Positions 6,750 to 33,416 of a stretch of 64,000 nucleotides of DNA are shown here, piece by piece (the stretch's first letter is position 1; each line of letters opens with the position of its first letter). The notes under the pieces were generated by a model that had not been told where the DNA came from, did no database searches, and was given only the letters and a program-made list of their open reading frames with translations. This DNA is from Flavobacterium sp. N502536. Its GTDB lineage: Bacteria; Bacteroidota; Bacteroidia; Flavobacteriales; Flavobacteriaceae. A program made the position numbers and the translations under genes. Location: NCBI RefSeq assembly GCF_025947345.1, contig NZ_CP110011.1, positions 3,100,001 to 3,164,000 on the forward strand. Direction: 5' to 3'.

Positions 6750-6807
6750 AAAAGGGCAGTAGGTTTTATTCCTGTATTAAAATTGCTGCCTTACTAAAAA
6801 ATAGCAT

Positions 6808-7596: not shown

Positions 7597-7652
7597 GGAG
7601 TGAACGGGCAGGGTTGAAGAGTCAATATTTTTTTGGAATTAAAAATTAAAAA

Positions 7653-9950: not shown

Positions 9951-9990
9951 ACATAAAAATGGCCGAGGACCATACTCTTCGAACGGCAGT

Positions 9991-10031
9991 CTCAAAATGA
10001 TAAAATCGTATCATTTTGAGGCGTTTTTTTT
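9991..10031 (+). terminator. Second terminator-like hairpin with no gene of its own
   Basis: CTCAAAATGATA (9991-10002) and TATCATTTTGAG (10009-10020) pair perfectly, followed by GCG and a run of T. It lies 47 bases after the preceding terminator. The remaining bases up to 10195 show no gene; they form the upstream region of the GNAT gene. Confidence 0.7.
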
Positions 10032-10195
10032 ACAGTTAAAATAGCTGTTTTAAGTGTAATGTGCTGATTTTTATAGGTTTTGTTGCGGTTTAGATATAGT
10101 GAAAATCTATTGGTATGTAATTTGAATATTATGCATTGTGTCTCCATCTCCTAAAATAACAAGGACAGTAAGAAATAGGAGTTACACCAAATCAT

Positions 10196-10879: not shown

Positions 10880-10932
10880 TAGTTCTACAAATATTGACTG
10901 GGGTTTCAATCTTAGGGATACAATACATTACC
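10526..10932. repeat. Direct repeat, intact copy (GNAT 3' part plus downstream bases)
   Basis: These bases recur at 26225-26629 in the same orientation at about 93% identity by eye, with one 2-base length difference after the stop codon. The two copies bracket 15.7 kb of accessory DNA. The match ends at the shared bases TACATTACC. Confidence 0.92.
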
Positions 10933-11060
10933 ACGATCTAAATAATTTAAATTTCAAATTCCATTTCATAATCACAATTTTAATATCTAGGAAATGATAG
11001 ACAAAATTTGCTAGTTTTACTGAAAAGTAAATTGTAATAAAAAAGAATAGTATACAGAAT

Positions 11061-11891
11061 ATGAAGGAACAACTTACTGAAATTATAAGGCAAGTTTATC
11101 AGAAACAAAACAGAAATCTATTTACATTTTTAACGGGTGCAGGAATTTCCGCAGAAAGCGGTATACCAACTTACAGAGGAGTAGATGGTATTTGGATAAA
11201 AGGAACTAAATTTCATAAACCAGAGGAGTTTGGAACATTTAAATATTTCAAAGAAAATCCCGAAGAGGTTTGGCAATACTCACTGTTTAGAAAAAAGATG
11301 TTTGAAAATGCTCAGGCCAATGAAAGCCATCATGAGATAGTTGCAATTGAAAATCTTTTACAAGACAGATTTCATTTAATAACTCAAAACATAGACAATC
11401 TGCACCGACGTGCCGGTAACGAAAGAATCTATGAAGTACATGGAAAAACCAGAGAAATTAAATGTTCGAATGGATGTAAAGGAATAGAAAATTTGCCTGC
11501 TGAAATTCAAGGCAAAGACATAGATGAAGATTTAACAGATAAAGATATCGAATTGCTAAAGTGCAAAGAATGCGGCAGCTGGATGAGACCAAATATTTTA
11601 TGGTTTGACGAGTATTATGATGAAAAAACAAATAAAAAATTCAGTTCTTTAAAAATTGCTAAAAATTCAGGGGTTCTGTTTATTGTAGGAACTTCAGGAG
11701 CGACAAATTTGCCAATGGCAATCGCAGAAACCACATTGAAATATGGCGGAACAATCGTTGATATTAATACTGAGGATAATTTATTTACAGCGCTTATTAA
11801 AGACAAGAAAAATAAAATGATCATTCGTGAAACTTCAACAGAAGCATTAAAAACAATTCGGGAAATATTAGAAAATATAGTAAAAGAATAA
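11061..11891 (+). CDS. Sir2-family NAD-dependent deacylase (sirtuin)
   Basis: All sirtuin landmarks are present in 276 residues: GAGIS-AESGIPTYRG (residues 26-40), TQNIDNLH (108-115), the catalytic His in VHGK (His127), and a zinc ribbon with Cys135, Cys139, Cys168 and Cys171. The NAD-binding IVGTSGATNLPMA and a final DINTED segment follow. Sirtuins remove acyl groups from lysines using NAD, and some Sir2 domains act as NAD-depleting phage-defence effectors. This one is a compact stand-alone enzyme without an Argonaute, HerA or other defence partner, so a deacylase role is more likely. It lies in the accessory stretch between the GNAT gene and the tRNA-Ser island. Confidence 0.9.
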   Translation: MKEQLTEIIRQVYQKQNRNLFTFLTGAGISAESGIPTYRGVDGIWIKGTKFHKPEEFGTFKYFKENPEEVWQYSLFRKKMFENAQANESHHEIVAIENLLQDRFHLITQNIDNLHRRAGNERIYEVHGKTREIKCSNGCKGIENLPAEIQGKDIDEDLTDKDIELLKCKECGSWMRPNILWFDEYYDEKTNKKFSSLKIAKNSGVLFIVGTSGATNLPMAIAETTLKYGGTIVDINTEDNLFTALIKDKKNKMIIRETSTEALKTIREILENIVKE

Positions 11892-11913
11892 ACTGTTTCT
11901 AAGAGTAAAATTT

Positions 11914-12357
11914 ATGTGCGAAACTGGAAAAGAAATTAAGCTTTGTACTTGCGTTCCAAACGGGATGAATAGAATTGTACACAATAAAAAATCCCGTAGA
12001 TTTAAAAATTTGCCTAAAGAATTCACCTGGACATTACGAAAATATGTGGGTTTTAGTAATTGCATGATGGATGGTATGATAATTTTTCCACTCGATATTT
12101 TATCAGAAGATTTGACAACTGAAAAAATGCTTGCAGATCTAAATAATAGAAATTGTTTTGATTTTGATTATCAACCCAATGAAGGTGATAATCTTCAAAT
12201 TTTTACCCCTGAAAAGTATTCGAGACAGTTTTTATCTTTTATCTATCGAAATGGGGAATGGATTGCTGACTATTATAACGGTTTCAGAGATGCAACTGAA
12301 AAAATAAATCATGGAAAAGTATATTTTGATGAAAAAACTGAAAATAAAAATGATTAA
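11914..12357 (+). CDS. 147-residue conserved protein, copy 1 of a duplicated pair
   Basis: The product begins MCETGKEIKLCTCVPNG and has no signal peptide or membrane segment. Central segments are MMDGMIIFPLDILSEDLTTE and ADLNNRNCFDFDYQPNEGDN. Almost the same protein is encoded at 13267-13710, differing mainly around residues 18-55 and 85-100. The stop overlaps the start of the lipoprotein at 12350, so the two are co-transcribed. No family is recognised. The copy-lipoprotein-copy order resembles the tandem-duplicated immunity or accessory genes of toxin loci, but no toxin is visible nearby. Confidence 0.75.
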   Translation: MCETGKEIKLCTCVPNGMNRIVHNKKSRRFKNLPKEFTWTLRKYVGFSNCMMDGMIIFPLDILSEDLTTEKMLADLNNRNCFDFDYQPNEGDNLQIFTPEKYSRQFLSFIYRNGEWIADYYNGFRDATEKINHGKVYFDEKTENKND

Positions 12358-13207
12358 AAAAACATTACTATTATTAATAACATTCGCAATCGTTACAAGT
12401 TGTAAAAATCAAAAAGAGGAGAGTAAATTTATAGATGTAAAAAGTGATAGTTCAAAATATCTTTTAGTAAAAGATGAAAATTACAAAGGTTTTAATTTGC
12501 AAAAGATTAAAGGCAAATGGGAACTTGAAAATGCTTCAATTGGGGATAATTCTAAAAATTATAATTTTGAATTAGGTGACAGTGAATTTACCCTGAATGA
12601 AGGAACTTGCGATACATCATTTGAAATTGATAGTATTCATAATCTGGAATATCATATACAAGGGCATTTTTATGGTCATTCAATAAAAGATGAAATGGAA
12701 ATTTTAAGTGACAAATTCTACAATTTATTTAATGTTAATATATTAGACTTTAAAGGCGTTATCACCACAAAATGTGCCGTTCCGTTTCATAAAATATATG
12801 TGTTTGGAGATGATTTGTTGGTTTGGTATTCGGGAAATTATATGCATTTTTTAAAGAAGAAAGAAAACCCTAAAGAATTACTTTTTAAATGCAAAGAAAA
12901 TGACAATGGCATTTCAAGATATGACGATCCTCTTAATAAAACATGTGTATGCAATGAAAACACATTCAATAACGCATATGAAATATTTTATGAGGAATCA
13001 CCGGATTACTTAAAAGAGAGTTTATTGAAAAAATTACCGCAGAAAAATCATGAATGGAAAGCTGCGGATGCAGATGTGACCTATACTTGGATTTTGCAGG
13101 ATACTCTAAAAATAAATATGTTTTTTCAGGGAGGTGAAAACCGTTATGTCTTTTATAAAAATAGCGACAATAAAATTGAATACAAAGAATATCTGTCGCT
13201 TCCTTAG
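12350..13207 (+). CDS. Lipoprotein of unknown function between the duplicated genes
   Basis: I chose the ATG at 12350 because it gives a lipoprotein signal (MIKKTLLLLITFAIVTSC) and overlaps the previous stop by 8 bases (AATGATTAA), the usual form of translational coupling. A longer in-frame start at 12311 would hide the signal behind 13 extra residues. The mature 268 residues contain repeated short beta segments (KGKWELENASIGD, NYNFELGDSEFTL) and a cysteine-bearing NKTCVCNEN segment. I recognise no domain. It lies between two nearly identical 147-residue genes and probably belongs to the same unit. Confidence 0.75.
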   Translation: MIKKTLLLLITFAIVTSCKNQKEESKFIDVKSDSSKYLLVKDENYKGFNLQKIKGKWELENASIGDNSKNYNFELGDSEFTLNEGTCDTSFEIDSIHNLEYHIQGHFYGHSIKDEMEILSDKFYNLFNVNILDFKGVITTKCAVPFHKIYVFGDDLLVWYSGNYMHFLKKKENPKELLFKCKENDNGISRYDDPLNKTCVCNENTFNNAYEIFYEESPDYLKESLLKKLPQKNHEWKAADADVTYTWILQDTLKINMFFQGGENRYVFYKNSDNKIEYKEYLSLP

Positions 13208-13266
13208 TTTTAATATTTGATCATAACAGTAAACAGAAAGATAAACTATTTTAGTACTAAAAATTT

Positions 13267-13710
13267 ATGTGCGAAACCGGAAAAGAAATTAAACTTTGTA
13301 CTTGTGTTCCAAATGGTATAAATACAATTGTACATAACAAAAAATCCCGACGATTTAAAAAATTGCGCAATGAGTTTACCTGGACATTAGAAAAATATGT
13401 TGGTGATAGTCAGTGTATGATGGATGGAATGATGATTTTTCCTCTCGATGTTTTATCAGAAGATTTGACAACTGAAAAAATGCTTGCCGATCTAAATAAT
13501 AGAAATTGTTTTGATTTTGATTATCAACCCAATGAAGGAGATAATCTTCAAATTTTTACTCCGCACAGATACGAACGGGAGTTTTTATCCTTTATCTATC
13601 GAAATGAGGAATGGATAGCTGATTATTATAACGGTTTCAGAGATGCAACTGAAAAAATAAATTATGGAAAAGTATATTTTGATGAAAAAACTGGAAATAA
13701 AAATGATTAA
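13267..13710 (+). CDS. 147-residue conserved protein, copy 2 of a duplicated pair
   Basis: Nearly identical to the protein at 11914: same length, same opening (MCETGKEIKLCTCVPNG), same DLTTEKMLADLNNRNCFDF segment, and same ending (KVYFDEKT-NKND). The 10 or so bases before each start also match (AATTTATG), so the duplication covers the translation start. Differences cluster in residues 18-55 and 85-100, which suggests partial diversification after duplication. Function is unknown. Confidence 0.75.
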   Translation: MCETGKEIKLCTCVPNGINTIVHNKKSRRFKKLRNEFTWTLEKYVGDSQCMMDGMMIFPLDVLSEDLTTEKMLADLNNRNCFDFDYQPNEGDNLQIFTPHRYEREFLSFIYRNEEWIADYYNGFRDATEKINYGKVYFDEKTGNKND

Positions 13711-13866
13711 AAAAGTCAAAATTCTAAAGTAGCATCCTTGGAGAGTTTGTCGGTTTCATCACTTTTAATGATTAACAGCTATTAAAGACATTACCTGTGT
13801 TTTTGACGACAGGAACATAGTAAAATTTCGGGATATATTTTTTTAAAACTTGAAGAAATCATTCCG

Positions 13867-13929
13867 GTATAAAACAACAAAACCCTCAACAATGTTGAGG
13901 GTTTTGTCTTTTGCGGAGAAAGAGGGATT
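13867..13929. repeat. Left 63-bp direct repeat of the island (tRNA-Ser 3' end plus its terminator), att-like
   Basis: These 63 bases are identical to 26670-26732. They contain the tRNA-Ser terminator hairpin (AAAACCCTCAAC 13879-13890 and GTTGAGGGTTTT 13894-13905) and the last about 15 bases of the minus-strand tRNA gene (GGAGAAAGAGGGATT). After GGGATT the sequence differs completely from the tRNA, so only the tRNA 3' end is present here. This is the pattern left by integration into a tRNA 3' end. Bases 13930-14210 then hold no gene; a minus-strand frame across this site is a chance reading of the repeat. Confidence 0.85.
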
Positions 13930-14210
13930 TGTACTCCTTCTCTAATGCTTTTATATATAAGGATTATATATTTTTTTCCTATTTTAGGGTCTCGCTTTTG
14001 CCCCTCTATTTTGAGTTGCAAATTTTGAAATCTTATAAGACAAATATAAAGAAATAAAATTACAATCAAAAAATAGTGAAAATTTAGATGTTCAATTATT
14101 GAAATAGTTTTAGAATATAAAATCAATTTGGAAGAAAAAACATTATAAATGATTTGGTTTTTCTTATCTTTCTAAAGCCTTTTAAAAGAAAAATAATGAA
14201 TTTTTAATGT

Positions 14211-15566
14211 ATGGAATTTTATAAAAAACGCCAACCAATTTCAGGGATTCCTGAACAGGAAATTGATAATTCATTTAAACGTTTTATAGATTTAATATCT
14301 GAGGAATGGTTAAACAAAAACAATTATCATCCTCTTAGAGCCCTATGGAAAAGAAGTGATATTTTATCCTCAAATGAAATTTTCTCGCTTGGGACTGCTA
14401 TTGATGAATTGTCTACTATAGATTCTAATTGGCTTCGTAATCAAGTTAAACTGATGAAATCAGCAGAGCGAAATAATTATCTTGGTGCATTTGCAGAAGT
14501 TTTTAGCATATATCTATTAAATGGAGACAATCATGTTACTGTTCCTGCAAAAACAAACCAACCGGGTTATGATGCATTAATGTCATTAACTCCTTCTGGT
14601 CAAACAATACGATTATCAATTAAAAATTATGGTCAATCTAAACATGAAGAAACATTTGTAAAATGGGCAACTAAAACAGAAGAATTAATAGTCAAACTTC
14701 TGAAAAAATACAAATACCATCCCGTAACAATTTGGATCGATTGTCCAAGTCAATATCCGAGTGAAGCAAAATGGAAATTGCTTCATTCTCATCTCGACAA
14801 TATTTTTAAAATAAAAAAAAATGCAACAGATCCATTTTCTGCTTTATGTACAGACGTTCCTGAATGGATTGTTATTATTAGTCCCCATATCGCAGCTGAT
14901 GGTCTACTTCACCCTAAATACAATTCATACACTTTTGTATTGAGTAGTGTTTATCACCCGAACGAAAATGACAATTTGTTAAGCAAGATTCAAGATGCCT
15001 GCTCTAATCTTTCAAAACACTCAGCAACCGAAGATGAATTTGTTAAAAATTTTCTATTTATACATCTCTCACCGTTGGCTTCAGTTGCAAAATGTAAAGA
15101 ATGGCTAGATGAATATTTTATCGAGTTTCCTGATAAACCAATTTCATCTGTTTTATTTCACCAACCATCGGTTGTGACAAATGTGAAAACAGGCTCATCA
15201 AATATCAATCATTTCTTTTTCCCATATATAAGAGAAGAACGAATGGAAGATTGGTTACCCTCAGGCTTCCAATTTAATTTCAAAGTACCCATAGGTACAA
15301 TATCAATGGAACCGGCAACCTATTCTTTAAATTTCACACACCCGGATGGTAAAATTGAAGTTATTACTGTTAATGATAGATATATGTATCAAAGAGGTAA
15401 TCACTATATCCAAATGCAACCAAATGGTAAAGATGGTTTTACAGCTAATATTAGCCAGTTAGCACCTGGTGTATTTTCGAATATTGTTGTTGAATTTCCT
15501 AATCAGCCAGGTCAAGCAGTAATAACTGGCAAATTCCCTCCCAACGATGAATTATTAATTTTATAA
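14211..15566 (+). CDS. Possible PD-(D/E)XK-type nuclease protein, otherwise unknown
   Basis: The 451-residue protein is not one I recognise. Residues 92-140 look like a restriction-endonuclease core: helix GAFAEVFSIYLL with Glu96, then PGYDALM with Asp121, then RLSIKNYG with Lys138. The arrangement E-x24-D-x16-(S)xK fits the PD-(D/E)XK fold with a Ser in the (D/E) position, so catalytic competence is uncertain. The C-terminal third is beta-rich (residues about 345-445; FNFKVPIGTISMEPATYSL, PGQAVITGKF). It starts the island's only plus-strand pair, 18 bases before a GGCT-like gene and convergent with the restriction/OLD/helicase operon. A defence or self-recognition role is inference from this position. 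Confidence 0.55.
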   Translation: MEFYKKRQPISGIPEQEIDNSFKRFIDLISEEWLNKNNYHPLRALWKRSDILSSNEIFSLGTAIDELSTIDSNWLRNQVKLMKSAERNNYLGAFAEVFSIYLLNGDNHVTVPAKTNQPGYDALMSLTPSGQTIRLSIKNYGQSKHEETFVKWATKTEELIVKLLKKYKYHPVTIWIDCPSQYPSEAKWKLLHSHLDNIFKIKKNATDPFSALCTDVPEWIVIISPHIAADGLLHPKYNSYTFVLSSVYHPNENDNLLSKIQDACSNLSKHSATEDEFVKNFLFIHLSPLASVAKCKEWLDEYFIEFPDKPISSVLFHQPSVVTNVKTGSSNINHFFFPYIREERMEDWLPSGFQFNFKVPIGTISMEPATYSLNFTHPDGKIEVITVNDRYMYQRGNHYIQMQPNGKDGFTANISQLAPGVFSNIVVEFPNQPGQAVITGKFPPNDELLIL

Positions 15567-15584
15567 AAAATAGGTTATTCAATC

Positions 15585-16145
15585 ATGAAAATAGCAATAT
15601 TAGTTTGGGGCTCATTGTACTGGGATCCAAGGAATTTACAAATTACAGGTGATTGGTTTTATGGTGGCCCATCATTACCAATAGAGTTTGCGCGAATATC
15701 TGGAGATAATAGACTAACCTTGGTTCTTAAACCCGGCTTCGATTCTGTCACTGTTCTATATGCAATTTCGTCACATAATACTTTTGAAGCAGCAAGGGAG
15801 AATCTTCGCAATAGGGAAAACACTCCCAATATTGATAATATTGGCTTCATAGATTTCACAAATAATACTCAACAGGTTAGACCCGCAAATTCCTTTATTA
15901 TTGAAATACTTCGTTTGTGGAATGAAGACAAAGGTTTCGATGCAATACTCTGGTCAGATTTCTCGCCACGTTTTACCGATATCATAGGAAGACAGTTCAG
16001 CTTACAAAATGTAACAGCTTTTATTGATGATTTACCAAATAATGAAAAACAAATAGCATTAAGTTATATAAGAAATACACCCGCTCAAGTAGATACTCGT
16101 TTTAGAAAATCTATCGAACAATATTTTGAGGGAGTCTACCCCTAA
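15585..16145 (+). CDS. Gamma-glutamylcyclotransferase-fold-like protein
   Basis: The 186-residue product begins MKIAILVWGSLYWDPRNL. The V-W-G-S-L turn matches the YGSL substrate-binding loop of the GGCT/BtrG fold, and PIEFARISGDNRLTLVL followed by TVLYAIS fits its beta barrel. The family also carries an acidic residue after the LR-x-RE motif, here LRNREN. GGCT-fold enzymes cyclise or hydrolyse gamma-glutamyl amides, but this branch is uncharacterised as far as I know. It follows the putative nuclease gene by 18 bases, so the two form an operon, and it converges on the helicase gene with 26 bases between stops. Confidence 0.6.
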   Translation: MKIAILVWGSLYWDPRNLQITGDWFYGGPSLPIEFARISGDNRLTLVLKPGFDSVTVLYAISSHNTFEAARENLRNRENTPNIDNIGFIDFTNNTQQVRPANSFIIEILRLWNEDKGFDAILWSDFSPRFTDIIGRQFSLQNVTAFIDDLPNNEKQIALSYIRNTPAQVDTRFRKSIEQYFEGVYP

Positions 16146-16171
16146 TTTTTTTCAGAAATAAAAACAAAAAA

Positions 16172-18085
16172 TCAACTTATCAAATCAAGATTAACTATAT
16201 TTTCACTTCCAAACCAATTTACAGCTTGTTTAATAATTTGAGCATCTGGATTATAATAGAAAATAATAAGATTGTCTTTTGCTCTAGTACAACAAACATA
16301 GAAAATTTTTTGAGTACGGGATAAAATTCCGGGATGAGATTTCTTTTTCGCAGCTGTTAATGTACTATATATGCTTGGGTTTAATAGGTATTCAAAATTA
16401 TAATTATTCCATCCACCATTATCAAGTACAACTAGTACATTTTTAAATTCAGCACCTTTAATTTTATGTTGTGTTGAAAACGGAGTAAATCCTTCTAGAT
16501 AATAAAACAAATTTTGGAACTGCTCAAATTTCACTTGCTTTACTCTTTCAAAAATATACGGATATTCATTAATAAATTTAGAGTATTTATCATCCTTTCT
16601 GCAAAGTCCTTTTTGATCTGCAAAATCAATAACTGTGGCAATTGTTTGTTGCGACATCTCATCTAATTCTTCAATTATCTTTTTAATGTTTATTTTATCT
16701 TTGACAGATCTTACTTGATATTCCGTACGTCTTAAAAACTCATTATATTGTTTTGTCTTATAAAAATGAATATTACGCTGAATTTTAAAAAGATGTTTAA
16801 TCAGGTTATCTCTTTTAGATCCTTTTCTACTTTCATCTTTTTCATCCTGTTTTTTATCATCGATAAGAGAATCTTTATTAAGATAGGTTCTTTTTAAAAT
16901 TTCGAAATTAGAATTTGAAGCATAAATAAACAATATAGAATTAGCATCGATGAACTCTTGTTGTGCTGGTGTTGGCGTTATACTTAATTCTTTGCAAACT
17001 TGACCAAATGTATACGCAGAAAAATCTTTTGTAATATTATTATCCTTTATATAATCTGTAACTCTCTTCTTGTAATCTAAAATTTTATCGCGATCATATA
17101 TTTCCATGAGATCTCCAAAACCAGCCTTTGGAGCTATCAAATTGTGTGTCAAGTTCAATTCCTTTGTTTCTTTAGTGTCGTCAGATTTCCAACCAATTTT
17201 TACTTTATGTTTTTCTAAATCAGGATTTTTCGAATATATAAACTTTATTTTGCCTTGTTTTATAGCTGTTCCTTCCATATTTGGAGCAGTAATATCTTCA
17301 GAAGGTTCTTGTTTCAATCCATCAGTACGCAGTCTATTTGCTAAGTCAATTACTGTCATCGGATTTCTACGATTTTGTTTTTTTTGGACTTCTACTATTG
17401 ATGAATCTAAAATATATTTTTTTAAATCGCCAACTCCATCATCATAAATTGCCTGCATTGAATCCCCAAAAAAACCAATAATATTTTTCTTTTTACTTTG
17501 CTTTAAATGCACCAAAAAGATCTCTATCACAAGTGGATGGGTATCTTGATATTCATCAATGAATATGAATTTATATTTATCTTTCAGAATATCAGATAAT
17601 AATCTATATGTTTTAAAAAGATGATTTGATAGTTCAAGTACATCATCATGAGAAATAATCCCATCTTGAATTTTTGTCCATTCTTTATATTGAATACCTT
17701 CACTAATATCTTTAAAGTAGTGTACGTTGACGATACCTCCAGTAGGGCTTTTAATTTTTGAATCTTCAGTATTTATTAATTGTATTAAACCAGCCTTTAG
17801 CTCACTCTGATATAGTTTGATATTATCCCATAGAAAATCGTGAATAGTTGTGACACTTAAATTAGGATGGTTTACTCTTTCCTCTATTTCTTTTACAGCT
17901 GCATTCGTGTATGTCATACAGGCAATTTTCGAAGTGGGATTATCTTCAATTGCCTTCTTTATTACTTGTACCAGAGAGTATGTTTTCCCACTTCCAGCTC
18001 CTCCACTTAATAAAAAATTTTTCCCTTTGGTAATATACTCAAAGATAGTTTCGACCTCTTTCTCTAATTTTATTTCCTCAACCAT
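16172..18085 (-). CDS. UvrD/Rep-like superfamily 1 helicase (partner of the OLD nuclease)
   Basis: A 637-residue SF1A helicase. Motif I (Walker A) is GGAGSGKT at residues 28-35. Motif Ia is MTYTNAAVKEI, and motif II is IDEYQDTH with Asp177 and Glu178. Motif III is FFGDSMQAIYD, motif V STQHKIKGAEFKNVLVV, and motif VI YVCCTRAKDNLII. It is short for UvrD and lacks clear extra domains. Its start overlaps the end of the OLD-family gene by 16 bases, so the two are translationally coupled. An OLD ATPase/TOPRIM protein with an adjacent UvrD-like helicase defines class 2 OLD and also the Gabija defence pair (GajA/GajB). It is the last gene of the five-gene operon. Confidence 0.88.
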   Translation of the reverse strand: MVEEIKLEKEVETIFEYITKGKNFLLSGGAGSGKTYSLVQVIKKAIEDNPTSKIACMTYTNAAVKEIEERVNHPNLSVTTIHDFLWDNIKLYQSELKAGLIQLINTEDSKIKSPTGGIVNVHYFKDISEGIQYKEWTKIQDGIISHDDVLELSNHLFKTYRLLSDILKDKYKFIFIDEYQDTHPLVIEIFLVHLKQSKKKNIIGFFGDSMQAIYDDGVGDLKKYILDSSIVEVQKKQNRRNPMTVIDLANRLRTDGLKQEPSEDITAPNMEGTAIKQGKIKFIYSKNPDLEKHKVKIGWKSDDTKETKELNLTHNLIAPKAGFGDLMEIYDRDKILDYKKRVTDYIKDNNITKDFSAYTFGQVCKELSITPTPAQQEFIDANSILFIYASNSNFEILKRTYLNKDSLIDDKKQDEKDESRKGSKRDNLIKHLFKIQRNIHFYKTKQYNEFLRRTEYQVRSVKDKINIKKIIEELDEMSQQTIATVIDFADQKGLCRKDDKYSKFINEYPYIFERVKQVKFEQFQNLFYYLEGFTPFSTQHKIKGAEFKNVLVVLDNGGWNNYNFEYLLNPSIYSTLTAAKKKSHPGILSRTQKIFYVCCTRAKDNLIIFYYNPDAQIIKQAVNWFGSENIVNLDLIS

Positions 18086-20259
18086 AATAAGCTTTCTTTT
18101 ATATAAGATGGAATTTGCCAGTTAGTATAAGATTCATCACTTGCAAATAAAATGTCTAATGCAAAGGAAGTTTTTTTCAAAATACAGTTCTCTGCAATGT
18201 CATATGAATCATAGTCATTGATATCATCAATATTTTTCAGTCCCTTAAATTTATCAATATTGTTTTTAATAAAATCCAAATTTAATGATATGAATGCATC
18301 TTCATAGCTCCTTGCATGGTAAGTCCCTTCAATAGACTGAAATGCAATATAGACATTCCCATTTTTGTCCAATTCCCATTTACCCTCAATTTTACTACAA
18401 ATTGTCTCGTTGGTTTTTAGTAATTTTAAAGCATCAAAAGTAATTTCATTAAAAAAAAGTCTAATTGCGTTATTACCATAATCTGCAGCATCAGCAACTC
18501 TAGATTTTGTCCGGATCATTTTAGGTGTACCATCCGTATTCTCTCTGAAATTACCGAACCTGTCTTTTGACTGCTCTAGTTTATAAGTATCTATATCAGT
18601 TATAATAACTGTTTTAATATTTAAAAAATGAATTAATTTTTCAAATATTTGAGAATGTGCCCCCACTTCAATTACAGATATATTTTGAGATAGCAAAGGT
18701 AAATCTATATCACTTTTATTTTCTATATCTAGTTTTTTCATCATTGTTGCTAGCAATAATCTTTCTGTATCGCCTTCGATTAAGACTACTTTATCAGCAA
18801 AAAACAATTCTGTCCTGTTAATAGTCAAATATTGCTTTAAGAAATCATATTGTGTGGAATCTTCTGAATATTCTTTCCTTAGATCTTTTAGGTTCTTAGC
18901 AATAACCTTGTTTTCAGTTTCTTTGGAAAAATATTTAATATCATCAAAGTCACTGTCGGCGGTAATATGTGATGAATGTGTTGTAATTATTGTCTGTAAA
19001 TCAAATGAGTGATTAACTCCTGCTTCACCTTTGCTTGCTTCTTTCAAAATGTTTTTTATGTTTTTTATAAAAACATATTGCATTTGGGGATGCGTGTGGG
19101 CTTCTGGCTCCTCAATAAACAACAAATTGATATCGGATGGTTTTTCATTTTCTTTATTATTCTTTCTAAAATCAGTAAGTAGGACTTCTATCTCAAATAT
19201 AATTCCTATTAGATTCATATAGCCCAGACCATTATAATGTTCCGGTAATGAATGTTCATCGTTATGATCATACATTACTGTTGTATTCCCTTTTAGAAGC
19301 TCTTTATGTTGTAAGGTTGAAATAACTTTAATTATGGAATCACCCTTTTTAATCCCTCCAAACATTTCTACTTTTTGTATAATGCTTTTAAATAGTCTCC
19401 CATAAACCTCGTCAAGTTGTGCATCGGTTTCGGTTAGAGTGTCTTTAAACTTTTGAATTGCTTCAGATTTATTTTCAAGACCTTCTCTTTTTTCATAATA
19501 CTTTGAAGATAATAAGGAAAGTGTCTTATCGGTGTCTTTATTTGAAACATCTCTTCGCGCATTTATTATCTTCAGATTAATAATTTTATCTAGTTGAATG
19601 TTCTCAGTGGTCAAGTCAATAAAATTACTATCATCTTCAACATTAGCTTCAATATTGAAAAGAATGGTTTTTCTTGATGACTTAAAATATGTTTTCTGAT
19701 ACTTTTTGAAAAAGTCATAAAATAAAGAGCTTACTTTTTGTTTTTTCTGGTTTTCAAATAAAACTTTTTGTTCAGGAGTTGTTGAGTCCTTTTCTTTTTC
19801 ATTAAAATATTTATTAATCTTTGAAATTTGCTCTTTTTGAAACTCTTTGAATGCAGCTTTTAATTTAGGAAGATCATCAGGATTTAATGAATATTCAAAT
19901 CCTAATACAACAGTTTTGTTGTCAGGATCAAGATCCATAATTACTTTACTCAAATTTGAAAGATCATCAGTTTCATCATAGACAATAAATAGTTTTAATG
20001 AAATTCCTAAAAACGGAATTTCAATATTTTCATCAGATTCAATAATTTTTTTTAGCTGCTTTTGGAAATCAATATTAAAATCATCACATGTAAAATCTTT
20101 GGTATTCGATTTATCGCTAAGAAATTTATCTAATACCGATAAAAGAGAAGTTTTACCACAATTATTTTTTCCTATTACAAGTGATAAGTTTTTTTCAAGA
20201 TCTAACTCAAAATCCTGTAACAAACGATAATTTATAATTTTAATCTTCGTAATTTTCAT
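18070..20259 (-). CDS. OLD-family ATPase-TOPRIM nuclease (class 2, GajA-like)
   Basis: The 729-residue protein has an SMC/ABC-type ATPase followed by a TOPRIM domain. Walker A is IGKNNCGKTS (residues 29-38), the signature region is HYNGLGYMNL, Walker B is LFIEEPEAHTHPQ, and the His switch is TTHSSHI. The TOPRIM domain shows VVLIEGDTE with Glu495 and ITDIDTYK with Asp555 and Asp557, the residues expected for metal-dependent cleavage. It is longer than typical GajA (about 580 residues); the extra length lies in a charged helical insert (about residues 130-200) and a C-terminal segment. It is coupled to the helicase gene downstream and lies 40 bases after the second methyltransferase gene. Confidence 0.88.
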   Translation of the reverse strand: MKITKIKIINYRLLQDFELDLEKNLSLVIGKNNCGKTSLLSVLDKFLSDKSNTKDFTCDDFNIDFQKQLKKIIESDENIEIPFLGISLKLFIVYDETDDLSNLSKVIMDLDPDNKTVVLGFEYSLNPDDLPKLKAAFKEFQKEQISKINKYFNEKEKDSTTPEQKVLFENQKKQKVSSLFYDFFKKYQKTYFKSSRKTILFNIEANVEDDSNFIDLTTENIQLDKIINLKIINARRDVSNKDTDKTLSLLSSKYYEKREGLENKSEAIQKFKDTLTETDAQLDEVYGRLFKSIIQKVEMFGGIKKGDSIIKVISTLQHKELLKGNTTVMYDHNDEHSLPEHYNGLGYMNLIGIIFEIEVLLTDFRKNNKENEKPSDINLLFIEEPEAHTHPQMQYVFIKNIKNILKEASKGEAGVNHSFDLQTIITTHSSHITADSDFDDIKYFSKETENKVIAKNLKDLRKEYSEDSTQYDFLKQYLTINRTELFFADKVVLIEGDTERLLLATMMKKLDIENKSDIDLPLLSQNISVIEVGAHSQIFEKLIHFLNIKTVIITDIDTYKLEQSKDRFGNFRENTDGTPKMIRTKSRVADAADYGNNAIRLFFNEITFDALKLLKTNETICSKIEGKWELDKNGNVYIAFQSIEGTYHARSYEDAFISLNLDFIKNNIDKFKGLKNIDDINDYDSYDIAENCILKKTSFALDILFASDESYTNWQIPSYIKESLLWLRK

Positions 20260-20298
20260 ATTTTAAATGTTATCGTTAGATGTTTCAAAATTTTGGGG

Positions 20299-22143
20299 TT
20301 AGATTTTAATTCTATATTTTTTTACTAAAAAATCATCCACTTCCTCTTTAGTTGCTCCGTTTGATAAAAAATATTTGTCCTGTTCATTTAACTCGCAAAT
20401 ACCAAAATTCTTGACATAATTTTTACCATACGATAAATAGCCTGATGAATATGGCTTACTAGTATTTGCAATGTAATATTCAAACACCTTAGATTCTAAG
20501 ATACGTTTTAGAATTTTGAGTTCTTTTACCGAATCATTAAATATTGCATATCCACAATATAACATCATTTCCTTCTGATCGGTAAATACAAAATATGGTT
20601 TTTTTGCCATATATGGGAAAAGCAATTTATAACCTTTATCACTGAGTGCCTGTGTTCTTCCAAATGCATACCACTCTCCATAATTGCCATTCCCTTTATC
20701 CCTTTTATGGAGATCTACTTTATGATCTAACAGATAATCATATGCTTTCGGAAAATTATTCTTTAGATACTCTTCTTTCATTAGAGAAAGTGGAGAAATC
20801 CCGTTAGTATAAGGGTAAATTAATTTTTCTTTAACGGTTTCTATTTCATGCTCAAATTTCAAAATATTGGGCTTAATAATATCCCTACAAATGCTTTTTT
20901 CAATTTGATATTCTTTATTATTTCGAATCAAGAGATAATGTTTTTTGGTTTCTGAAACTGGCTTGAAAATGTAAATATCATTACTAAGAGTTGCAATCCC
21001 GTTTTTGATGGTATATAAATCACCTAGTGTTTTACCTGTTGATTCAATACGTCTGATATTTTCTACTATTATTTTATTATTAAGTAGCCATCCTTTATGA
21101 TAATTAAGATCGTTGAATGAAATATGGTTGAATGATGTAAGTCCATTTTTTGTTAGTGACTTTGCTGATTCTTTTTTATAAGCAATAGTATCACTTTCTT
21201 TTTTTGTGATGAAGCAGATACAGGTGTAAGCCGATATTTTATCAAATATTTTTTCATCACCAAAATCAATAATACTTATATCATATTTCTTTTCCTCAAA
21301 ATATTTTCTAAGCTGTCGTGCATTGACACTTTTAAAGAAAGAATTTACAGTAATATATCCTAAAATTCCATTTACATTGAGATATTTCAAACCAATTTCA
21401 AAGAAAGGAATGTATAAATCAGGATTTCCTGATTTTGTTACAGCCCAATCGGAGAGCATTTTTTTTGTCCCTTCATCAAGATTTTTAGCTCGTACATAGG
21501 GTGGATTTCCAATAATTATATCAAACCCTTCATTGTTTTTAATCCTGTTGCATGATGTGAACCAATCAAATGACAATGCATTTCCACAATACAAATTAAA
21601 TTCAAATTTTTCTTGATCCTCACCATTTGAAAGTGCTAAAAGCGTAAGTAATATTTCTGTTCTTCGAATACTAGTTTCACTAATATCTAGCCCAAAAATA
21701 TTATCCCTAAATATCTTATTGAAAGACTTTTTTGTTGAATAGTGTATTTTGTTAGCCAATGTAAAAAGGAATGCACCACACCCGCATGAAACATCACCAG
21801 ATAAAAGTTTATCTTGATTTTTATCTGTTTTACTCAACGCATTTTCAACAATGAAAGATTTTATAAAGTTTGGCGTGTAAACAGCTCCATTTATTATTTT
21901 TTCTACTGATGGAATCGCCAATTCGAATGCTTCAATCAGATCATCAAAAGAAAAACTTTGCAATTGCAATGATAATGGTTCTGAAAATACTTCTGAATTT
22001 TCAGTAAGCAACAAATCTCTAATTAAAATATTTTTCTCAATTTTAATTGCATTTGATTTAACGAATAATGAGACAAGTATTTTATTAAGAGTCGTCTCAT
22101 TTTCACTAAATTTCTTAATTATATTTATAAAATCTTTATTCAT
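20299..22143 (-). CDS. N6-adenine DNA methyltransferase (Eco57I/TaqI-like), no nuclease domain visible
   Basis: A 614-residue gamma-class methyltransferase. Motif I is DVSCGCGAFLF (residues 117-127) in place of the usual DPxCGSG, and motif IV is IIGNPPYVR with NPPY at 213-216. YTPNFIKSFIVE (residues 89-100) is the helix that normally precedes motif I. The C-terminal half (about 370-600) is a TaqI-like target-recognition region (YCGYAIFNDSV, KPYSSGYLSYGKNYVK). No PD-(D/E)XK motif is seen, unlike its longer neighbour at 22146. It starts 2 bases before that gene's stop. Two such methyltransferases in one operon may modify the two strands of an asymmetric site, or one may have another role. Confidence 0.88.
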   Translation of the reverse strand: MNKDFINIIKKFSENETTLNKILVSLFVKSNAIKIEKNILIRDLLLTENSEVFSEPLSLQLQSFSFDDLIEAFELAIPSVEKIINGAVYTPNFIKSFIVENALSKTDKNQDKLLSGDVSCGCGAFLFTLANKIHYSTKKSFNKIFRDNIFGLDISETSIRRTEILLTLLALSNGEDQEKFEFNLYCGNALSFDWFTSCNRIKNNEGFDIIIGNPPYVRAKNLDEGTKKMLSDWAVTKSGNPDLYIPFFEIGLKYLNVNGILGYITVNSFFKSVNARQLRKYFEEKKYDISIIDFGDEKIFDKISAYTCICFITKKESDTIAYKKESAKSLTKNGLTSFNHISFNDLNYHKGWLLNNKIIVENIRRIESTGKTLGDLYTIKNGIATLSNDIYIFKPVSETKKHYLLIRNNKEYQIEKSICRDIIKPNILKFEHEIETVKEKLIYPYTNGISPLSLMKEEYLKNNFPKAYDYLLDHKVDLHKRDKGNGNYGEWYAFGRTQALSDKGYKLLFPYMAKKPYFVFTDQKEMMLYCGYAIFNDSVKELKILKRILESKVFEYYIANTSKPYSSGYLSYGKNYVKNFGICELNEQDKYFLSNGATKEEVDDFLVKKYRIKI

Positions 22144-22145
22144 GA

Positions 22146-25100
22146 CTAAGAATGAAGAATTTGTATTCGGTTAATGTTTCTATTTCTCTCTCTAAAAAAA
22201 TCTTTTTCCTCTTGAGATAATTCATAAAGCTCATAACATAAATCATCTATGGTATTCCATTCTCTATTCAGAAGGGTTTCTATTCCTCTTTTTTGTGAAG
22301 GAGAAGAAGTGCTATGTTGAATTTGCATTGTTGAGATTCTCATGACTGAACGAGCAAGCTGGGCTTTTAAAGCTGCATTATTGGTAAAATTTCCAACGGG
22401 AAATGGCACAGGTTCAAGGAACTGCTTATTGAATTTGAAATAACCATTTGTTTGGGGATTCGCAATCGATCTGGCCAAAACAGAGAAAATGGTTGAATTA
22501 ATAATTGCCGCCATCGCCTGTAAATTTATTTCATTAATTTGAGGAAGCTCTATATAATTTACATTAGCATTGTCACAATAATGTCTTTCAGAATAAGTTA
22601 TAGCTCCAAAAGTATCCTGAGCTGTCATTGGTATATATATTTTTGGGAAATTCCTAGCAATATTATTTGCTCTTGTATAACAATGCCAGCGTTCACCAAG
22701 AAAAGTCTCTACTTTAAGCTGTATTTGCTCTTTATTTCTAAGTAAATAAGCTCCCGCTAGTGGAAATCGTTCATTAAAAAGTGTAAAAGGGATTTCTGTC
22801 GAAACTCCATTTTCAATTACATAAGGAAAAATACAATACGTTTCAGGAGTATCATCTCTAAAGGAATAGAAATGCTCATTTGGCAAAAGTGCACAACAAG
22901 CGTCCAACTCAATTTCAAATGAATCTTCCAAATGGGTTTTACCGGTAAGGATACCATTTGCTAATGATATTGGGCGAATATGATAAGCATCATTCCATAA
23001 TGATTGTATACCAACTCTCACAACAGCATAATCACCAAGACACCCTAGTTCTAAAAGTTTTGCACGTATAGCTATGAGATCATTATCTCCGAAATTCCAT
23101 GCGTTTCCTGATAATGAATTAGAGGGTAACAAAGTATATTCCTCTGCTGCTATATCTGGTGTTGCAACCTCTCTAAGTTCGAACTGTAAAGTTTCTGGTT
23201 TATCTTTAAATAATTTATAACTGAAATGGTCAGGAGCCAATCTGTCAAGTATTAATATTGTTACATATGTAATCCTATCTTTAAAAATAGCAGTTGTATC
23301 AAAATCAATTACCGAAGAAAGATAACTTAATCCAGAAATTATTTCTCTTATTTTTTTCCCATAATCAGTTTTAAAAAATCTTTTCTGAATAATAAAGCCA
23401 AGCCGTCCACTTGGATTTAGCAACTTGACTGACAACTCAATAAAAGGTATCGCAAGATCAATTTTTCCATTTTTTGCAGAAGGAAATTTTTCCTTAATGT
23501 ATTGATGCATGAATGGCAGGTCAGTATTATAATTCTTCACTTCAACATATGGCGGATTTCCAATAATATAATCAAATCCACCTTTTTGACGGAATATCTC
23601 ACTAAATCCATGTTCGCTGTCCCAATCAAAAATATTTGTCCTCAACAATTCTTCTTGATTATTTTCAATATCCGGGAATAAATCCAATATATCGGATTCA
23701 ACTAAAGAGTTTCCGCATCTAATATTATTACCAATTCCATGAAGAATTTTACTTCCAAAAAGACCAATCTCATTATAAGATTCAGGATGTTCAGATGAAT
23801 CTATTATTTTTAGAGATAATGACATTTTAGTAACCTCTACTGCTTCTGCATCTATATCCACCCCAAAAATACAATTGTCGAGAATAGCTTTTTTACCTGA
23901 CAAATTAACTATTGTCTCTGTTTCTGTGACATGAAAGTATTGTATAAATTCAGGATGACCAGTAGCTATAAACAATTCTTTGAAATTATCTTCAATATAA
24001 TCGTAAGCTTCAATAGCAAAAACTCCGCTACCACAAGCTATATCAAGAATTTTTTTGGAAAATATATTTTCAATTCCATCTCTCTGCAAATGTGATTTTA
24101 AAATTGTTCTTCGAATAATTTCCTGAACAATATATTGAGGTGTGCTGACAGCTCCTTTAGTTTTTGTATACTCACTTTTGATTTCGTCTTTTACAACCGA
24201 ATCTTCAATTAAAAGTTTTCTAGAAAGAAATATTTCATAAATATCACTAAGGAGTTTAGTTGGTATAACATCAAAACGATATGGTGAAGGATAATATAAA
24301 TGCTGAAGCAAAATATCAAAAACCGAATCTGATATATTAAGTTGGTGTATTTCATTAATTCTGTCAAACAACGGTCCATCATAGTGATCATAAAAATTAA
24401 AATAGGATGAATGTTTAAATTCCCTCCAGAATCCATTTCCTTTAAACATATTTAACAATCCATCTTCTTCAATCTTTCTTGCTTCGCAAACTCTTATAAA
24501 AAGAACTCTATTAATAATTACCTGTGTTATGTAGCTTAAATTAGTAGCATTGTTCTGAATATAGTCAGGATTATTTTCTAGAATATCTGCAGCTAACGCT
24601 AAGCGAAATTCTGATAGTTCTTTTGCAAATTTTAAGTCTGGTGTAATTTTCTCAATATATCTATTATCTTTTAATGTTGAAGAATAGATTTCAGCAAGAA
24701 CTCCTTTATATACATTTTCTTTTAAAAGATGTTTTTCTAAAGTTTCAAAGTTGCCCAAATAATTATCCAAACTAAAATATAAACAACCAAAATTGGCATT
24801 TTGTCCTCTCACTGGAGTATAAGTACAGTCATAAATTGCGAATTCTTCAAAATTTGAAATAAAAGCGCATGGAGCGAGAATTGACCAACCGTAAGATTTA
24901 ATTTGAAATGCTGAGTCAACATCATTTTTGATGTTTACACTAATATCTTTAGCATCTAGAAATGTTAATTTCTGCTTTGCTATTTTAAATGTATAATCAG
25001 GGCGTGTATTAGTTGATCCAATAGAGGTTAGTTGCTCTTTTTCTGCTTTTGATAAAACTTTCTCCTGCAAAATTTGAGAAGTATCTCTCACATCCCAACC

Positions 25101-25235
25101 AAATATTTCGAGAAATTGATTTAACCAAGTTCGAATTGTTTCCTCAGATGTCAAATCAAGTTTACCTTTTTCTTTAAATTCAGTATATTCTGAGATTAGA
25201 TTTGATAATCTTTGTTTTCTATTTTCTGAACTCAT
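22146..25235 (-). CDS. Type IIG restriction-modification enzyme (fused endonuclease and N6-adenine methyltransferase)
   Basis: The 1029-residue protein joins three parts. The N-terminal nuclease shows Pro79-Asp80 in NTRPDYTF and Asp94-Ala95-Lys96 in TFLDAKD, a PD-(D/E)XK core. A helical linker leads to a gamma-class methyltransferase with motif I LDIACGSGVF (Gly402 and Gly404) and motif IV NPPYVEV (560-563). The last about 330 residues form the target-recognition region (NPQTNGYFKFNKQFLEPVPF). This is the layout of Eco57I-type enzymes, which both cut and methylate. Its ATG overlaps the XRE regulator's stop by one base (TAATG). The recognition sequence cannot be read from the protein. Confidence 0.9.
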   Translation of the reverse strand: MSSENRKQRLSNLISEYTEFKEKGKLDLTSEETIRTWLNQFLEIFGWDVRDTSQILQEKVLSKAEKEQLTSIGSTNTRPDYTFKIAKQKLTFLDAKDISVNIKNDVDSAFQIKSYGWSILAPCAFISNFEEFAIYDCTYTPVRGQNANFGCLYFSLDNYLGNFETLEKHLLKENVYKGVLAEIYSSTLKDNRYIEKITPDLKFAKELSEFRLALAADILENNPDYIQNNATNLSYITQVIINRVLFIRVCEARKIEEDGLLNMFKGNGFWREFKHSSYFNFYDHYDGPLFDRINEIHQLNISDSVFDILLQHLYYPSPYRFDVIPTKLLSDIYEIFLSRKLLIEDSVVKDEIKSEYTKTKGAVSTPQYIVQEIIRRTILKSHLQRDGIENIFSKKILDIACGSGVFAIEAYDYIEDNFKELFIATGHPEFIQYFHVTETETIVNLSGKKAILDNCIFGVDIDAEAVEVTKMSLSLKIIDSSEHPESYNEIGLFGSKILHGIGNNIRCGNSLVESDILDLFPDIENNQEELLRTNIFDWDSEHGFSEIFRQKGGFDYIIGNPPYVEVKNYNTDLPFMHQYIKEKFPSAKNGKIDLAIPFIELSVKLLNPSGRLGFIIQKRFFKTDYGKKIREIISGLSYLSSVIDFDTTAIFKDRITYVTILILDRLAPDHFSYKLFKDKPETLQFELREVATPDIAAEEYTLLPSNSLSGNAWNFGDNDLIAIRAKLLELGCLGDYAVVRVGIQSLWNDAYHIRPISLANGILTGKTHLEDSFEIELDACCALLPNEHFYSFRDDTPETYCIFPYVIENGVSTEIPFTLFNERFPLAGAYLLRNKEQIQLKVETFLGERWHCYTRANNIARNFPKIYIPMTAQDTFGAITYSERHYCDNANVNYIELPQINEINLQAMAAIINSTIFSVLARSIANPQTNGYFKFNKQFLEPVPFPVGNFTNNAALKAQLARSVMRISTMQIQHSTSSPSQKRGIETLLNREWNTIDDLCYELYELSQEEKDFFRERNRNINRIQILHS

Positions 25236-25543
25236 TAATTTTTCTTTTTAATTTGATTATTAATTTGCTCTTCAGCTGCATGAAGAATATCTTTAGCATA
25301 TTTTTCACCTGCTAATTGACACGCAAGTTGCTTACTCATAAACATTATAACTAACTGTTTCTCATCAACATTAAAAGTTTTTGCAACTATCGGTAGCATC
25401 TGTCTATTCACTGGACGTTCACCACGCTCAAGCTTGCTTAAAGTACTTTGATCAATATCTAAAATGGCTGCTAATTTTCGTAATGGCATTTCTGATTTTT
25501 CTCTTAAATGCCTGATATATTCTCCAAAATTTTCTACTTGCAT
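25235..25543 (-). CDS. XRE-family regulator of the restriction operon (C-protein-like)
   Basis: A 102-residue protein with a Cro/C1 helix-turn-helix in residues about 5-62 (YIRHLREKSEMPLRKLAAIL, DIDQSTLSKLERGERPVN). The size and position match controller proteins of restriction-modification systems. It is the first gene of the operon, one base from the type IIG gene. A 7-2-7 palindrome centred 23 bases upstream of its start overlaps the -7 element of the only visible promoter, so autoregulation is likely. Such control delays nuclease expression until the DNA is methylated; that timing role is family knowledge, not shown here. Confidence 0.85.
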   Translation of the reverse strand: MQVENFGEYIRHLREKSEMPLRKLAAILDIDQSTLSKLERGERPVNRQMLPIVAKTFNVDEKQLVIMFMSKQLACQLAGEKYAKDILHAAEEQINNQIKKKN

Positions 25544-25558
25544 CTTGATTTTGTTTTC

Positions 25559-25579
25559 TTGACAATGTTGTCAAATATA
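25559..25579 (-). promoter_or_regulatory. Promoter -7 element overlapped by a palindromic operator
   Basis: TTGACAATGTTGTCAA (25559-25574) is a perfect 7-2-7 inverted repeat. On the minus strand the -7 box TATATTTG (complement of 25572-25579) overlaps its end. It lies 16 bases before the XRE start codon, so regulator binding would block this promoter. Confidence 0.75.
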
Positions 25580-25905: not shown

Positions 25906-26224
25906 GATTTATGATTTTAAATTAATTTGCTGTGAATGATAATTTTTTCTTTTTGGGTTCGCTGACTACTTTTTTGTAGAACATTGAATATTTTAAAGTG
26001 AGATCGTTTCCTCTGTTTTTCTCCAGAGTAGCGAACCGCTGTTTAGGATCTTGATGAGAGGAACAATGAATTACTTAAGTTGGATTGTGTGTCATTTTAT
26101 TACCTCAGTACATTGCGCTATTTTTTTGCTTGGGAAATGAAGCACCAAATGATTTTTGGGTATTTGGTACGAAGATAATTTAATGGTTGGTTGTGATTTT
26201 CAAGTTTGTAACCGAATCGAGATA
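25906..26224. other. Non-coding stretch at the right end of the island
   Basis: No frame, strong hairpin or repeat that I can support. It ends where homology to the GNAT gene begins at 26225, so a recombination junction lies at about 26224. Confidence 0.5.
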
Positions 26225-26576
26225 TGTCTCTAATTCGAGATTAATTATAGCTCCAGAATTCAGACATACCGGACTTGCCAAAAGGATTAAAATAAAAATT
26301 TTTGAGCTCAGCTGACAGAAATATCCCGATGCTCGTATATTCAGCCTAACTACTGATCTTGCTGTAATGAAAATGAACCACGAACTCGGTTTTGAACCCG
26401 TTACTTACTTCGAACTGACTTCAGACGAAACATTCTGGGAAAATTGTAAATCATGTGTAAACTGCCCCATATTGATGAATAAGGACAGGAAAAACTGTTT
26501 GTGTACGGCTATGCTTTATGACCTGAAACAAAATGGAACGAAGATAGATCTGGTAAAAGAGTTAGAGATTATGTAA
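26225..26576 (+). pseudogene. Truncated GNAT acetyltransferase copy with in-frame stop
   Basis: This matches codons about 111-227 of the GNAT gene at 10196 in the same orientation, about 93% identical by eye, including the Cys-rich tail. The 5' half is missing, and the CGA (Arg) codon of the intact gene is TGA here (26313-26315). A 69-codon open tail remains from 26367 but is unlikely to be expressed. Homology continues about 50 bases past the stop to 26629, just before the tRNA-Ser terminator. It marks an old recombination or duplication that placed the end of the GNAT gene next to tRNA-Ser. Confidence 0.92.
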
Positions 26577-26669
26577 TAGTATTACAGATATTGGCTGCGG
26601 TTTCAACGGTAGGGATATAATACATTACCGCAACGTATATCTTTTGTAAAGTATCAGGAAACCATTGTA

Positions 26670-26732
26670 GTATAAAACAACAAAACCCTCAACAATGTTG
26701 AGGGTTTTGTCTTTTGCGGAGAAAGAGGGATT
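26670..26732. repeat. Right 63-bp direct repeat of the island (att-like)
   Basis: Identical base for base to 13867-13929. It covers the tRNA-Ser terminator (stem 26682-26693 with 26697-26708) and the 3' end of the tRNA gene. The distance between matching points is 12,803 bases. The third occurrence at about 33377-33439 differs at three positions, so the two island copies are each other's closest relatives. Confidence 0.88.
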
Positions 26733-26801
26733 CGAACCCCCGGACCTGTTACAGTCAACAGTTTTCAAGACTGCCGCATTCGACCGCTCTGCCATTTCTC
26801 C
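26717..26801 (-). tRNA. tRNA-Ser(UGA), copy with one extra base before the T stem
   Basis: Read on the minus strand, the gene starts GGAGAAATGGCAGAGC and ends in TTTCTCC followed by discriminator G; CCA is not encoded. The anticodon loop CTTGAAA gives anticodon UGA (complement of 26765-26767). A long variable arm, typical of tRNA-Ser, is present. This copy is 85 nt, one base longer than the copy at 33425, because of an additional C at the junction of variable arm and T stem. Its upstream region matches the other copy only to about the -33 position, and the TTTG box of that copy reads TTTA here. It may be weaker or defective. Confidence 0.9.
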
Positions 26802-26885
26802 AGTATGTCGCGATCATTTGCTGATTGCGAGTGCAAATATAAGATGCTTTTTTGGTTATTAAAAATATATATTAACCTTTTATTT

Positions 26886-26918
26886 AATTTAGATATTAAT
26901 ATACCCAGTGTACCAAAT
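26886..26918 (+). repeat. Left terminal inverted repeat (33 bp)
   Basis: Pairs with 33268-33300 in inverted orientation. The innermost 22 bases, which include CCCAGTGTACCAAAT, match perfectly; mismatches occur only at the 5th and 11th positions from the outer end. Confidence 0.85.
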
Positions 26919-33300: not shown

Positions 33301-33389
33301 TATTTTAATGTAAAGGCAAAGATAAACGTATTGGGTTGATTAGGTGTTTTTTAGTAGAGTATGGAGAAACCATTGCTGTATAAAACAAC

Positions 33390-33416
33390 AAAACCCTCAA
33401 CAATGTTGAGGGTTTC
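33390..33416 (-). terminator. Terminator of tRNA-Ser(UGA)
   Basis: AAAACCCTCAAC (33390-33401) and GTTGAGGGTTT (33405-33415) pair around AAT. The same hairpin follows the other tRNA copy and occurs in the left island repeat. Confidence 0.85.

Follow-up and report, generated by a model that had tools for sequence, protein, structure and literature searches.

The window analysed here, a 64,000-nucleotide stretch (NZ_CP110011.1, positions 3,100,001 to 3,164,000) of the single-contig 5.05-Mb genome of Flavobacterium sp. N502536, carries five intact genes on the minus strand (16172-25543) that place a complete Gabija antiviral system directly behind a type IIG restriction-modification (RM) system. 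With moderate confidence, we read this gene set as a co-regulated and probably mobile two-layer antiviral operon that consists of an Eco57I-type RM head and a Gabija backup tail. This reading draws on the DNA itself: the parts are intact, their genes stand in a defined order with one operator-like site, repeats flank the set, and in relatives such modules are repeatedly joined and swapped. The five genes, in the order of their presumed transcription, are as follows.

25235-25543, minus strand: XRE-family regulator, 102 aa, at the head of the operon (Pfam HTH_3, 39 bits; PADLOC HTH_VI, 45 bits, and Control_protein, 30 bits)
22146-25235, minus strand: type IIG restriction enzyme-methyltransferase, Eco57I-like, 1029 aa (PADLOC PDLC03604, 546 bits, residues 5-1011; Pfam Eco57I, 134 bits)
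20299-22143, minus strand: companion N6-adenine DNA methyltransferase (MTase), 614 aa (PADLOC MTase_II PDLC03335, 399 bits; Pfam Eco57I, 110 bits)
18070-20259, minus strand: GajA, OLD ATPase-TOPRIM nuclease, 729 aa (PADLOC GajA PDLC00079, 890 bits over residues 1-729; OLD-like_TOPRIM, 57 bits)
16172-18085, minus strand: GajB, UvrD-like helicase, 637 aa (PADLOC GajB PDLC00135, 759 bits over residues 2-633)

The XRE and IIG genes overlap by 1 base, the IIG and MTase genes are 2 bases apart, a gap of 39 bases precedes gajA, and gajA and gajB overlap by 16 bases. The original prediction had listed the same five parts on one strand, with gaps of at most 40 bases and three overlaps or near-overlaps, and had taken them for one operon under one controller gene; the open reading frames (ORFs), motifs and family scans bear this out, and the PADLOC models identify the OLD-helicase pair as Gabija, as had been supposed. 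The interval proposed at that time (14211-25579) does contain the operon but also takes in two plus-strand genes that are not part of it.

Each of the four enzymes carries what we take to be its active-site motifs: PD79-x13-DAK, DIACGSG398 and NPPY560 in the IIG enzyme, DVSCGCG117 and NPPY213 in the companion MTase, GKNNCGKTS30 (Walker A), EGDTE495 and DID555 in GajA, and GGAGSGKT28 and DEYQD177 in GajB. The Pfam and PADLOC scans agree with these assignments. As expected of type IIG, nuclease, methylase and specificity region are found in a single chain (PDLC03604 over residues 5-1011), the specificity domain giving a TaqI_C match of 22 bits, under the family cut-off. The 614-aa MTase follows 2 bp downstream, and the pair is conserved in a genome called as the same genus (G281). 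The window MTase has no match at E 0.001 to PF22837, the C-terminal family of M.Eco57I, and the system is therefore filed as Eco57I-type by its plan and not as a relative of M.Eco57I; PF22837 matches do occur in 6 of the 31 upstream neighbours of other gajA genes described below, that of locus L047 included. GajA combines the OLD ATPase with a TOPRIM nuclease and catalytic motifs, and gajB overlaps gajA, as in Gabija. No methylation-reading domain was found among the Pfam matches of GajA and GajB.

A putative control region lies at the head of the operon.

25559-25574, minus strand: operator-like palindrome TTGACAACATTGTCAA, just before the XRE start
25572-25579, minus strand: overlapping promoter-like TATATTTG

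The second of these matches TAnnTTTG, the consensus element of Bacteroidota promoters, and a small helix-turn-helix gene in first place with a palindrome at its own presumed promoter is the layout of a C-protein-like controller. Palindrome and TAnnTTTG occur together at 14 of 18 XRE genes, near-copies included: at 8 of the 10 that belong to an RM head and at 6 of the 8 that do not. In an earlier set of 22 shorter regions, which included four small ORFs whose identity as XRE is unproven and regions too short at L080 and L083, the pattern was present in 12, versus none in 200 rounds of dinucleotide shuffling. Exactly one operator-like site was found in seven of the eight operons scanned whole, the window's included, and none in the eighth (L033). 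TAnnTTTG is absent from the MTase-gajA gap in all seven loci inspected (7/7), and a scan for sigma-70-type promoters did no better than shuffled sequence. Gabija loci that lack an RM head may have an XRE gene of their own with the same type of palindrome at its start, as seen in six of the eight examined (L068, L069, L071, L080, L083 and L189), and XRE control of Gabija may be common across Bacteroidota.

A search of genomes for this gene order, which the original prediction had proposed, shows that the arrangement recurs. Of 290 GajA relatives found in species genomes, we surveyed the best 80 with flanks of up to 10 kb, which is not a random sample, and found the same order, XRE-IIG-MTase-GajA-GajB, in six loci of four lineages (L033, L047, L050, L061, L062 and L066), the IIG enzymes being about 27-31% identical to that of the window. 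Four more loci have an IIG gene directly upstream on the same strand, from three further families (PDLC03609 in L057 and L082, PDLC03610 in L070, and the MmeI-like PDLC03627 in L094). With a type III Res gene in L037 and, at the edge of a contig, a fragment of type ISP in L101, RM genes lie directly upstream of gajA in 12 of the 80 loci, the fragment counted; L028, which has an IIG-like N-terminal part upstream of gajA, was excluded from this label.

The joint is also directional. Among neighbours on the same strand within 150 bp, all scanned with Pfam, an Eco57I domain occurs in 10 of 31 upstream versus none of 25 downstream (Fisher p 0.0013, or 0.005 when two upstream near-copy pairs are counted once). 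None of the 25 downstream neighbours matches Eco57I or N6_Mtase, and one matches GmrSD domains. The remaining upstream positions (larger gap, 28; gene on the opposite strand, 18; contig edge, 3) were covered by phmmer searches with a few RM proteins only. In a GajA tree with 99 rows, near-copies included, the 16 rows that carry the RM label imply no fewer than 12 changes, each of them forced by starred branches; gains are not separable from losses on this tree, and long branches leave its deep parts unsure. The RM partners come from several families. Viral contigs, when scanned, yielded three GajA relatives.

Related genomes show front-line modules placed again and again before backup modules, with the partners swapped. 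Locus L061 (Epilithonimonas) and locus L068 (a Bacteroidetes metagenome-assembled genome) match at 91% over L061 positions 1-4941 and 9966-14230; between these flanks, L061 has 5.0 kb with XRE, IIG and MTase genes and L068 has 360 bp with an XRE gene of its own (37% identical). The right-hand match begins 35 bp before gajA, and conjugation genes (a TraG P-loop protein and a coupling protein) lie beside the L061 slot. Between L061 and L062 the flank is common, XRE is 87% and GajA and GajB are 70% and 77% identical, but the IIG enzyme and the MTase are just 37% and 41% identical. In a remote clade, L133 and L134 share the same RM pair (98% and 99%), in the order MTase-IIG, followed by Gabija in L133 and by a GHKL ATPase in L134. 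The latter tail, in the position that Gabija has in L133, is a 667-aa protein with an HATPase domain (6186-8186, minus strand). The L133 Gabija (87% and 89%) reappears within a type I locus in L200.

Heads related to that of the window are found with other tails as well. The closest relative found, in G281 (XRE 78%, IIG 68% and MTase 70% identical), is followed directly by genes for SIR2 (430 bits) and HerA (807 bits), the tail given for locus L128; an XRE-IIG-MTase head in L162, from the same genus, precedes GmrSD_N, RelA/SpoT-like and TOTE primase-helicase genes (13808-18793, plus strand). A tail gene begins within about 170 bp in each of the four chromosomal IIG-MTase pairs with enough downstream sequence (L128, L133, L134 and L162); in L160 the sequence ends at the pair, which stands outside this count.

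In five of six loci (L142-L145 and L147; L146 differs), a relative of the window MTase (44-48% identical) is the last gene in a row of four. The row begins with a protein of about 780 aa (in L142, which alone was scanned, it has two HATPase domains), continues with proteins of 350-380 aa and 230-250 aa, and then the methyltransferase; it is possibly a separate defence operon.

For a second sample, 395 genomes of the phylum were drawn twice, apparently the same genomes each time; 13 have an IIG gene and 17 have gajA, the window's genome included. Both genes are found in three genomes versus 0.56 expected (p 0.015, window included), or in two versus 0.49 expected when the window is left out (p 0.08, which is weak). 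In two of the three genomes that have both (the window's and G755) the genes adjoin, gajA in G755 lying next to an IIG-MTase pair. At least 3 of the 16 other GajA genomes in the draw are RM-linked, a lower bound in that neighbours were Pfam-scanned in 3 of 15 stretches, two stretches end just upstream of gajA, and the gajA of L194 was missed by the gene caller. One of these three is G755; in the other two Gabija sits inside type I loci, in the order HsdR-YhcG-HsdS-GajA-GajB-HsdM in L193 and as HsdM, two genes, and HsdS-GajA-GajB-HsdR in L200.

Plasmids gave GajA matches in five records, of which four were inspected. Apparent type III RM genes lie just downstream of GajA on an Aliarcobacter plasmid and an IIG-like gene lies about 1.3 kb downstream on a Pontibacter plasmid; no RM gene is annotated in the stretch around GajA on the Bartonella and Gluconobacter plasmids. 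Of the 28 plasmid records with IIG matches, eight were inspected. The Ancylobacter plasmid has a gene for a GIY-YIG nuclease 115 bp downstream of its IIG-MTase genes, and the L. brevis plasmid pKB290-1, for which the gene table is incomplete, has OLD and UvrD genes about 1.2 kb upstream of IIG-MTase on the same strand.

Several observations weigh against a co-regulated two-layer operon. The exact pairing of the window was seen once, its nearest head relative (G281) having another tail and its nearest fetched GajA (L027) having no RM genes upstream, and the near-copy pairs L047/L050 and L061/L066 reduce the six same-order loci to four lineages. In 68 of the 80 GajA loci (3 of them cut at that point) the scans made show neither an IIG nor a methyltransferase or type III gene as the direct upstream neighbour. 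Of 28 long ORFs from other positions in the GajA loci, at least 2 match IIG families, one of them in L053 about 340 bp downstream of gajB, so IIG genes also occur near Gabija without adjoining it; this control covered the ORFs of 875-1386 aa among 98 non-adjacent ORFs of at least 600 aa, three longer ones and the shorter ones being left out. The 150-bp neighbour limit was chosen after looking, and the operator pattern was defined only after the sequences had been inspected. On the GajA tree the RM label is more clustered than in shuffles (shuffled mean 15.1, with 4 of 500 as low as 12), so RM linkage is partly inherited, yet it has changed many times. None of the eight inspected plasmid records has Gabija or a similar tail behind the IIG-MTase genes, and the head can therefore stand alone. 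As to mechanism, the end-based action of Gabija considered below rests on one preprint, in Pseudomonas (PMC12407980), and an earlier paper proposes nucleotide sensing by Gabija (PMC8136825).

One alternative is that two independent defences were simply stacked in one mobile operon, where co-transfer and a shared promoter are convenient and no functional interplay exists. We consider this a serious possibility, if not a probable one. Each half is also found alone, as in the plasmid IIG-MTase genes and the Gabija of L027, and the tails are interchangeable and unrelated, which argues against a specific biochemical coupling. Against plain stacking, RM genes favour the upstream side on the same strand (10/31 versus 0/25), and the joint recurs with several RM families.

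The original prediction had proposed instead that the two methyltransferases mark self DNA while the OLD-helicase pair attacks DNA that lacks the mark. Gene order and likely co-regulation are what speak for this idea, which we regard as very improbable and do not retain as the main reading. Most Gabija relatives show no adjacent methyltransferase gene (the 68 loci above, by the scans made, and all 25 close downstream neighbours), and the tail is therefore probably not guided by methylation. In L027, the locus of the closest fetched relative of the window GajA (63%), the gene upstream is on the opposite strand; enzymes joined to Gabija come from several families, with targets that are probably different; similar triads precede unrelated tails (SIR2-HerA; GmrSD/RelA-SpoT/TOTE); and a domain that could read methylation is missing from the Pfam matches of both Gabija proteins. 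It had also been stated that the idea would fail if the five genes rarely co-occurred, or if the pair were found alone with the same phylogeny and the methyltransferases were chance neighbours. This is half the case: Gabija and the RM triad are each found separately and the exact pairing was seen in the window only, but the kind of joint recurs.

That the two systems are chance neighbours within a defence island and that selection has played no part in joining them is highly unlikely: RM and Gabija genes do cluster in islands and the genome-level excess is weak once the window is removed (p 0.08), but IIG and GajA adjoin in two of the three genomes that have both, and upstream bias, repeated joining and cassette exchange between near-identical flanks (L061/L068) speak against it.

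Under the two-layer reading that we favour, the head would comprise the XRE regulator, the IIG nuclease-methylase and the companion methylase, and the complete Gabija tail would be transcribed from the head's promoter, with XRE predicted to repress the entire operon. The head would cut unmethylated DNA, its methylases protecting self, and Gabija would serve as an independent backup that does not read methylation. Gabija is reported to act on linear DNA if RecBCD makes no use of its ends, and to be licensed by phage end-binding proteins (PMC12407980, preprint). In the window's host, the tail may likewise act on linear DNA with ends left unused by the RecBCD/AddAB nuclease, and phages that survive restriction by blocking this nuclease would then meet Gabija as the second layer. 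The restriction enzyme itself would create such ends, and RecBCD-blocking phages may in this way expose themselves to Gabija, a connection that is our own. The host encodes a RecB/AddA-like protein (C1:1424949-1427432), which scores below the family cut-off. Gabija is also reported to respond to the anti-restriction protein Ocr (PMC12255303), which likewise fits a backup role.

More tentatively, RM operons might be general heads that dock interchangeable tails (Gabija, SIR2-HerA, the GmrSD/RelA-SpoT/TOTE set and GHKL ATPases) and are reshuffled by conjugative elements, with DNA ends made by the head arming the tail when a phage blocks RecBCD/AddAB; we would call this broader proposal possible, not probable. 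The window operon itself suggests how a restriction system could pass the DNA that it has cut on to a second nuclease, and it offers a simple way to find further tails, namely to inspect the sequence immediately downstream of type IIG operons. Closely related elements that occur naturally as pairs, with and without an RM head before the same Gabija, offer a direct test of whether clustered defences cooperate.

The surroundings of the operon bear on its mobility, and include the two genes that converge on gajB from the plus strand (14211-16145).

13867-13929: left direct repeat, 63 bp, of the presumed island, identical to 26670-26732
14211-15566, plus strand: first convergent gene, R451, 451 aa
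15585-16145, plus strand: second convergent gene, 186 aa
26670-26732: right direct repeat, 63 bp, 3' end of tRNA-Ser(TGA) with a terminator-like hairpin
26716-26801, minus strand: complete tRNA-Ser(TGA), right end

The 12.8 kb between the 63-bp repeats hold the operon and the two convergent genes and look like an insertion at a tRNA gene; the small island that carries the operon is probably mobile. No integrase was recognised among the ORFs listed or scanned between the repeats. Neither convergent gene has a family match over the cut-off in the Pfam and PADLOC scans, and with their opposite orientation their membership in the system is not supported. None of 147 other genomes of the order gave a match to R451, and among 72,556 plasmid records 21 gave distant matches, Burkholderia and enterobacterial plasmids among them; its single-sequence structure model is poor (mean pLDDT 39.6).

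Other repeats are found nearby. A second tRNA-Ser copy lies at 33424-33508, the region 26642-26887 being duplicated at 33350-33594, which points to a 6.7-kb unit in tandem that includes an IS1595-like transposase and a gene resembling aspartyl proteases. An acetyltransferase-like gene (10196-10879) has its 3' part repeated just left of tRNA-Ser (10526-10932 at 26223-26629, 92% identity), and a direct repeat of about 500 bp (11864-12361 and 13212-13714, 88%) duplicates a 147-aa gene.

Compared with known systems, the window pair resembles Gabija (the class 2 OLD protein GajA with the UvrD-like helicase GajB) in that both proteins match near full length and their genes overlap, and differs in that it stands behind an RM operon, apparently under XRE control, and is not free-standing. 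The head resembles Eco57I-type RM in joining a bifunctional IIG enzyme to a separate adjacent N6-adenine methyltransferase. This plan has been described (PMC12602166), and the second methyltransferase beside the IIG gene is therefore not new; unlike Eco57I, the window system has an XRE controller and a Gabija tail, and its companion lacks the PF22837 match. A second antiviral module in an RM operon headed by a small repressor gene is reported for DarTG2 (PMC12255303), which is embedded in a type I RM system controlled by the RptR repressor; the RM type, effector and repressor family are different there, and DarTG2 lies between hsdS and hsdR. OLD ATPases are likewise proposed as backup effectors (OLD-TOPRIM) behind a modification-based system in BREX operons (PMC12839542), with BREX in place of type IIG and with PARIS-like and other OLD modules. 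OLD genes are also reported from species-specific operons with defence genes among their members (107 of 837; PMC6755086). In the literature that we searched, mostly at the level of listings, no published description of a type IIG-Gabija operon was found, which is weak evidence of absence. Each half of the window operon is a known system, and the embedding of one defence in another is known as well; what is unusual is the way in which RM and Gabija are joined.

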